Source: Cryomorphaceae bacterium BACL29 MAG-121220-bin8
Lineage (GTDB): Bacteria; Bacteroidota; Bacteroidia; Flavobacteriales; Flavobacteriaceae
Reading direction: 5' to 3'
DNA length: 36,501 bases
Assembly: GCA_905182765.1 (NCBI GenBank)
Contig: CAJJCV010000028.1
Location: 1 to 36,501, forward strand
Shown in pieces: positions 14,081 to 17,762 of this stretch. The position numbers were made by a program, and so were the translations under genes. The number at the start of each line of letters is the position of its first letter. Position 1 is the stretch's first letter. The notes under the pieces are model-generated. The model was given only the letters and a program-made list of their open reading frames with translations, made no database searches and was not told the origin of the DNA.

Positions 14081-14419
14081 TTAATTAGATTTGGTGCACC
14101 AGTCTTTATAAGAAACTGTTGTGTAATTATCAGATGGATTTATTTTATACCTAATTTCATTTGCATCTTGGTTTTGCTGTATTTCATGAGCCTTGATTAT
14201 TTCACGAGAACATAAATCGTTACAGAAACAAAACAGAGCTTGTGCTTCAGTAACTCCGGAGCTTAAATATGCTTTTTGAGAGCCTCCTCCTGTATTTTCG
14301 TTTGTTAAAGTTATGTAGGTTATGTTTTTAAATTCACTTCCTTCAGCACTTTCAAATTCATCGTCCGACGAGCTACACGAAATAATAATTAATGATAATA
14401 GTAATATTAATTTTTTCAT
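14081..14419 (-). CDS. Small lipoprotein with surface-export-like signal
   Basis: A 112-residue lipoprotein (MKKLILLLSLIIISC, Cys15). Right after the Cys comes SSSDDEFES, which resembles the acidic lipoprotein export signal described in Flavobacteriia (SDDFE-like in F. johnsoniae), so it is probably displayed on the cell surface. The mature part contains a Cys cluster FCFCNDLC near residues 63-70 and a further Cys near the C-terminus (KDWCTKSN), possibly disulfides or a metal site. Its ATG overlaps the photolyase-like stop (ATGA). Function unknown; I know no named family for it. Confidence 0.7.
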   Translation of the reverse strand: MKKLILLLSLIIISCSSSDDEFESAEGSEFKNITYITLTNENTGGGSQKAYLSSGVTEAQALFCFCNDLCSREIIKAHEIQQNQDANEIRYKINPSDNYTTVSYKDWCTKSN

Positions 14420-15513
14420 TTTATAATGTTTTTAATTTTTAATTCTTTTTTACATTTTTTCCAATAACTGAAAAATGATTTTACACTTTCTTTACTTTCA
14501 AAAATCCAATCTCTAGAATCTTCTGTTCCTTCGTAATTATTTAGCGGATGTTCTTTATAAAAAGTATTTTTAATATCATACTCCTTAACTAAATCAAAAA
14601 ATGAGCCAACATAAATTTGAATACCATTAATATTTTTAGATAATTCAATCGTAAAGTCAATACACTTTTTGGAAACAGGGTAGTTTTCAAAAGTCTTTGG
14701 CTCTAAAAGCAAAACTCTATTATAATTTTTTTCTTGCCTCCACACAGGGTCTAGATTATAATAATTGTAAATTAAAGTAGGTAGGTTTTTGTCAATTTGT
14801 AAACTTTTCTTTTCTGGGAGTTTAGTTGATAATTTTAAATCAATTGTTTCTTTTAGATCTTTTGGAATTTGTAGTGATTCAAACTCAGAGTAATCTATAT
14901 CTAAAAAAGTATTTTTTTGATTGGTATAACAATATTTATTAATGTTTTCTTGATTAGCATAATATTTTTTATTGCTATTACTTCCACAAACCCATTGCCA
15001 ACTTAAAGCATTGCTTCCCCAGTCACCATCAAATAAGTTATAGTACATCCATCTTGCTGGATTTAGCCAGTGACTTTTGGCAACATTGCAAGCTATTGAT
15101 GCTAAATACATTCTATTATGATTGTGCATATAGCCAGTATCGTAAAGTTCGTTTATACTATTATCAATAGCTTTAATTCCACAATTACCATCAACAAGAG
15201 TTTTTGATAGTGAATGATTGCTTACATCATCTTGAATTCTTTTCAAATCAGCATCAATTAGATTATTTTTTTGTTTCCAAATCAATTGCCAATAATCTCT
15301 CCAACATAATTCTTGTACAAATTTTTCTACTTTCCAAAATGGAATATTTCTTTCAAGAATTTTTTCAAAAACATATTTTGTTGAAATCAGTCCTCTTGAA
15401 ATGTATGGGGATAATTTAGTAACTGAACCGTCAATGAAGTTTCTGTTTTTTGAATAATCTAATGGATTAATCAGTTCAATCTTATTTATAATTTCTGAAT
15501 ATTTTGTTTCCAT
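14416..15513 (-). CDS. Photolyase/cryptochrome-like flavoprotein with N-terminal FAD domain and C-terminal alpha/beta-like region
   Basis: A 365-residue protein from the ATG at 15513; an upstream TTG (15585) lies inside the katG promoter and is unlikely. The FAD-binding helical domain of photolyases starts at once: SPYISRG (35-41), LCWRDYWQ (69-76), YMHNHNRMYLASI (128-140), then NALSWQWVCGS (168-178) and YANQENINKYC (185-195). The antenna/alpha-beta domain that precedes this in ordinary photolyases is absent. Instead residues about 246-361 (LIYNYYNLDPVWR, NRVLLLEPKTFENYPVS, IQIYVGSFFDLV, SRDWIF) look like the strand/helix pattern of that alpha/beta domain placed after the FAD domain. Probable DNA repair enzyme or light sensor. 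First gene of an operon, divergent from katG. Confidence 0.8.
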   Translation of the reverse strand: METKYSEIINKIELINPLDYSKNRNFIDGSVTKLSPYISRGLISTKYVFEKILERNIPFWKVEKFVQELCWRDYWQLIWKQKNNLIDADLKRIQDDVSNHSLSKTLVDGNCGIKAIDNSINELYDTGYMHNHNRMYLASIACNVAKSHWLNPARWMYYNLFDGDWGSNALSWQWVCGSNSNKKYYANQENINKYCYTNQKNTFLDIDYSEFESLQIPKDLKETIDLKLSTKLPEKKSLQIDKNLPTLIYNYYNLDPVWRQEKNYNRVLLLEPKTFENYPVSKKCIDFTIELSKNINGIQIYVGSFFDLVKEYDIKNTFYKEHPLNNYEGTEDSRDWIFESKESVKSFFSYWKKCKKELKIKNIIK

Positions 15514-15543
15514 TAATTTTTTAAAATAATTGTGAATTTTTTC

Positions 15544-17762
<2,219 letters not shown>

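Follow-up and report, generated by a model that had tools for sequence, protein, structure and literature searches.

The gene studied here encodes a 365 amino acid protein which, as a whole, is best explained as a member of the NewPHL/SPL class of CPD photolyases (probability about 0.85), with the catalytic FAD domain placed first and a short alpha/beta domain placed last. It lies in a window of 36,501 nucleotides, the whole stretch of DNA that was analysed (contig CAJJCV010000028.1, positions 1 to 36,501), from Cryomorphaceae bacterium BACL29 MAG-121220-bin8. The domain order, the predicted fold, the active-site conservation, the position in the tree and the gene neighbourhood of the relatives were computed in this work. 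As the inverted layout has already been published for NewPHL/SPL, the protein is of a known kind.

The reading frame is intact from the ATG at 15513 to the stop codon at 14416-14418. An in-frame TTG is found upstream at 15585, and relatives start near the ATG in the 94 full-length sequences (361-373 aa) that share this layout. FAD_binding_7 (PF03441, E 6e-20) is the sole Pfam match of the protein. The N-terminal alpha/beta antenna domain of canonical class I photolyases was found neither by Pfam nor in the upstream frames, and no Pfam match to the DPRP N-terminal domain (PF04244) of FeS-BCP was detected. The original prediction, that the N-terminal antenna or Rossmann domain is missing and that the protein starts close to SPYISRG, holds on both counts: Pfam finds nothing upstream of FAD_binding_7, and SPYISRG is at residues 35-41. 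The AlphaFold2 (AF2) model of the whole protein, built from 81 sequences, reached a pLDDT of 95.2 and a pTM of 0.92. The N-terminal domain superposes on complete canonical FAD domains to close to the chain end, with an rmsd of 2.5-2.7 (7ykn, Z 16.4; 1iqr residues 175-414, Z 15.9; 1dnp residues 200-461, Z 15.7).

Table 1. Features of the putative photolyase gene and its divergent neighbour, in window coordinates.
Feature	Residues	Coordinates	Strand	Basis or remark
Whole gene, probable NewPHL/SPL-type photolyase, 365 aa		14416..15513	-	ORF, Pfam, relatives, AF2 model
Catalytic FAD domain, N-terminal	1-222	14848..15513	-	Superposition Z 15.7-16.4; PF03441 at 65-187
SPYISRG, FAD-site motif	35-41	15391..15411	-	Sequence and active-site alignment
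DGDWGSNALSWQW	162-174	14992..15030	-	FAD contacts D162, D164, N168; W172 proximal Trp; W174 CPD contact
Linker, within the least conserved stretch	223-240	14794..14847	-	Conservation and AF2 model
C-terminal alpha/beta domain, probable shortened canonical homologue	241-365	14419..14793	-	AF2, superposition, hhalign
KEHPLNNYEGTEDSRDW, conserved loop after fourth strand	320-336	14506..14556	-	Aligns with canonical 'YEP...RD'
SFFSYWKKCKK	346-356	14446..14478	-	Aligns with canonical 'VFTPF.K.W' ending the alpha/beta domain
katG, catalase-peroxidase		15600-17762	+	Starts 87 bp from photolyase ATG

The motifs LDPVWR, VLLLEP..F and I.IYVG, from which the tail had been proposed to resemble the missing alpha/beta domain, are present as described at residues 254-303. 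In the AF2 model strands and helices alternate over residues 246-332 and are followed by a helix at 347-360, and the tail modelled alone (residues 241-365) is again a compact alpha/beta domain with a pLDDT of 90. The mean share of the majority residue over the 94 sequences is 0.66 in the tail and 0.73 in the FAD domain; being nearly as conserved as the catalytic part, the tail is not a product of chance. Its best structural matches by VIA-align are N-terminal domains of photolyases and cryptochromes (8ijy residues 2-125, Z 7.2, rmsd 2.4 over 92; CRY2, Z 6.6; 1owl, Z 6.5), with residues 6-122 of the tail model placed on residues 2-165 of many photolyases in the same order of strands and helices. 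Universal stress proteins have the broader HUP-type fold in common with the photolyase alpha/beta domain and follow closely with a Z of 6.2, so that structure alone is suggestive but not proof. Foldseek gave no significant match for the tail alone, the best rows being phosphopantetheine adenylyltransferases (PPAT, E 0.05), and the Pfam/HMM search of the tail alone returned no match. The close Z of the universal stress proteins, the Foldseek rows and the lack of a Pfam match would suit a protein which is rightly assigned to its class and whose tail is an unrelated HUP/Rossmann-like domain, for instance of the universal stress type, fused independently.

We consider such an independent fusion unlikely in view of the profile comparison. 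When a profile of 81 tail sequences was compared by hhalign with 70 canonical alpha/beta domains, 87-89 columns were aligned in the same order with scores of 29.8-30.8 (probability 51-54%), whereas universal stress proteins, PPAT and response regulators scored 13-17, and column-shuffled controls had a mean of 12 and a maximum of 22 (60 shuffles; maximum 18.7 in a further 100). The alignment remains in register from the second strand to the helix with the canonical end motif FTPF.k.w, which is SFFSYWKK in the window protein; the tail lacks the final helix and strand of the canonical domain and so represents a shortened version. We regard the evidence for homology between the tail and the canonical alpha/beta domain as moderate, and the proposal that the domain order is swapped relative to classic photolyases as supported. 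The C-terminal half would be a minimal, relocated version of the alpha/beta domain of photolyases; it is most likely packed against the FAD domain and could, but need not, carry an antenna pigment.

Further evidence against an unrelated tail comes from FAD-first relatives on Deinococcus plasmids, in which the Pfam family DNA_photolyase (PF00875) is found at the same place, the C-terminus. The E values were 1e-3 and 7e-4 with whole proteins and 8.7e-5 with a single tail, none of which reaches the curated cut-off. By hhalign the match to the canonical alpha/beta domain has a probability of 97.5% over 136 columns. In Deinococcus sp. QL22 the FAD and alpha/beta domains are encoded by separate genes overlapping by ATGA, and several genomes belonging to the class of G479 have a small gene matching the alpha/beta domain behind a FAD-only gene (clear match in L329-L332, weak in L333, and in L170 in an overlapping downstream frame). 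This split form (L329-L333, L170, L152) resembles the picocyanobacterial Phr4/Phr5. For the FAD-only protein L197 no adjoining alpha/beta gene was found within the available stretch. The apparently split copy in L018 was rejected as a natural fission, the split being a run of N. The Z-type domain of the Roseobacter-type members matches Deinococcus tails at 42-59% in profile comparison and canonical domains weakly (score 18.7, shuffles up to 16.4); the window-type tail compared with NewPHL Z-domains gives 71 columns in register with a score of 14, which is within the range of the shuffles.

The split-gene forms make an origin of the inverted order by gene fusion or fission plausible. The term circular permutant, used in the original prediction, describes the domain order correctly; the order itself may have arisen by true permutation or by fusion of separate genes. 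We give even chances to the wider proposal that the tail of the Bacteroidota proteins and, via the Deinococcus and split forms, the tail throughout the NewPHL/SPL class is a relocated homologue of the canonical alpha/beta domain. The class would then be a branch produced by domain shuffling rather than a relic lacking the domain from the start, with the two-gene forms marking the route of the shuffle.

The active site was checked in an alignment of 81 sequences with the photolyase of S. elongatus (Anacystis nidulans), whose FAD-contact, CPD-contact and Trp-chain residues we take to have the roles known from its structures. Y228, R232, S244, E283, W286, R287, N349, R352, M353, W367, D380, D382, N386, W390 and W392 of S. 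elongatus are all kept in the window protein, and every one of them is present in 79-81 of the 81 sequences; within DGDWGSNALSWQW the residues D162, D164, N168, W172 and W174 correspond to D380, D382, N386, W390 and W392. The distal Trp (W314) is replaced by V or I in the family of the window protein and T240 by V. With W172 and W149 invariant and no third Trp, the family has a Trp dyad instead of the usual triad. Conserved FAD and CPD contacts together with the change of W314 to V/I fit a CPD photolyase with a Trp dyad. The NewPHL of Dinoroseobacter has likewise been described with a mere Trp dyad (PMC8948257), and a conserved Asn has been reported for NewPHL (PMC12083526). The four Fe-S cysteines that mark reverse-order Fe-S photolyases are lacking: the C..C...C motif after the FAD core is absent, as is the Cys of the 'TG..CID' motif of L146, L170 and L197; where these three carry Fe-S Cys motifs the window protein reads CGIKAID and NKYCYTNQKNTFL.

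From these residues we infer FAD binding and repair activity. The N-terminal half would be a complete photolyase catalytic domain binding FAD, a flipped-out cyclobutane pyrimidine dimer would be held between W71 and W174 and split by light-driven electron transfer from FADH-, and photoreduction of FAD would pass through W172 and W149, two Trp and not three. By analogy with studied NewPHLs, the substrate is probably the CPD in single-stranded DNA, with a preference for the single strand. The absence of the distal Trp, and the one or two other photolyase genes beside many family members, which may render repair redundant, could also point to a bacterial cryptochrome acting as light sensor, or to a DNA-binding protein, in place of a repair enzyme. 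Every CPD-contact residue checked is conserved, however, which makes either alternative quite improbable.

In 63 of about 92 relatives the gene that follows on the same strand encodes another photolyase or a flavin reductase. In many of them a same-strand cluster is formed by DUF2805 (TIGR03643), the inverted photolyase, a photolyase homologue, a flavin reductase and FeS-BCP; it is conserved in L042-L113, e.g. L056 and L054. To our knowledge no function of DUF2805 has been described. In the photolyase homologue beside the gene in many Bacteroidota (L109:4079-5560, L070:4044-5528 and relatives) DYEPGIHYPQFQM is found in place of the canonical DGD..N...WQW, so that F and M appear to stand in for the proximal Trp and for one Trp of the CPD contacts; this neighbour is possibly an unusual cryptochrome. 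In the clade of the window protein the gene is divergent to katG instead of being part of the same-strand cluster. The intergenic region is short (15514-15599), and katG is directly upstream on the other strand in 7 close relatives as well. Downstream, on the minus strand, an ORF of 112 aa (14081-14419) is lipoprotein-like, with a Cys after a signal-like start; its ATG shares a few bases with the stop codon of the photolyase gene, it is kept in 5 close relatives and it has no Pfam match. On another contig of the source genome a photolyase of usual domain order (432 aa) adjoins an FeS-BCP-like gene (489 aa).

In the FAD-domain tree, which includes Roseobacter-type NewPHL homologues, a branch with 100/99 support separates all FAD-first and FAD-only proteins from the canonical photolyases. 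The same separation was obtained in a second tree with FeS-BCP and other groups added; the branches of FeS-BCP and SPL-alpha are long, leaving the deep branching unsure. The window protein groups with NewPHL homologues, homologues from the same bacterial groups standing in for the characterised NewPHLs. Full-length relatives of the window type are mostly from Bacteroidota, with a few on contigs assigned to Acidobacteria, Pyrinomonadaceae, Balneolaceae, Opitutaceae and Rhodobacteraceae; binning errors may account for part of these. Relatives were not found in viral contigs and phage matches were limited to the FAD domain, and a viral origin was rejected. The matches in G086, G118, G620 and G623 have one stop codon inside the aligned stretch, which may mark either the ordinary end of the gene or a real interruption. 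That the gene is a canonical photolyase truncated or frameshifted as a pseudogene or by assembly error, as its short length and absent N-terminal alpha/beta domain might suggest, is refuted by the same layout in 94 full-length sequences, by full-length matches in 15 of 22 genomes of its genus and by the constraint on its tail, and a frameshift hiding the N-terminal domain is ruled out because no upstream frame reads as such a domain or holds a coding remnant and the start of katG, on the opposite strand, is 87 bp away.

NewPHL/SPL were described in 2020-2022 as CPD photolyases of inverted topology which act on single-stranded DNA (PMC13274461, PMC9426592); the founding descriptions (Emmerich 2020, Xu 2021) are known to us through citing papers, in one of which Xu 2021 is cited for SPLs without the N-terminal domain (PMC9649867). 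Phr7 of Prochlorococcus has a FAD domain followed by a Z-domain; Phr6, of reverse order, and the split Phr4/Phr5 are Fe-S photolyases (PMC9426592, 2022). The window protein is like NewPHL/SPL and Phr7 in its N-terminal FAD domain, its short C-terminal domain (in NewPHL the Z-domain), the lack of an N-terminal alpha/beta domain, the Trp dyad, the CPD-site residues and the absence of Fe-S cysteines. Its Bacteroidota subfamily differs in size (361-373 aa versus roughly 380-450 aa for NewPHL homologues), in a tail whose profile matches the canonical alpha/beta domain better than the NewPHL Z-domain, and in a conserved KEHPLN..Y.G...RDW loop. Phr6, split Phr4/Phr5, the Deinococcus proteins L146, L151 and L153 and split L152 have the same order and fall on the same side of the tree, but carry CxxC...C Fe-S cysteines, which the window family does not. 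Class I CPD photolyases and DASH proteins have in common the fold of the FAD domain and the FAD and CPD contacts, and differ in the opposite domain order, a three-Trp chain and a full-size alpha/beta domain. FeS-BCP, the prokaryotic (6-4) photolyases (PF04244), belong to the same superfamily, are cluster neighbours in many relatives and include 8ijy, whose alpha/beta domain is the structure that the tail matches best; they differ in their own DPRP N-terminal domain, an Fe-S cluster in most and another active site.

New in this work is a compact, mostly Bacteroidota subfamily, usually encoded in a photolyase gene cluster, together with sequence evidence which would tie its tail to the canonical alpha/beta domain and apparent split-gene forms outside cyanobacteria. 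Neither the Bacteroidota branch, nor the gene cluster, nor the sequence-level link of the tail was found in the accessible literature, with Emmerich 2020 and Xu 2021 covered through papers that cite them.

The absence of the usual N-terminal antenna domain has led to the proposal that short FAD-first photolyases may be ancestral to the photolyase/cryptochrome family. This argument weakens if that same domain, relocated, forms their C-terminal part, and a small protein would then allow the question of the antenna to be tested. With the window protein the class gains a compact, broadly distributed and mostly Bacteroidota branch, many members of which are clustered with photolyases and a flavin reductase.
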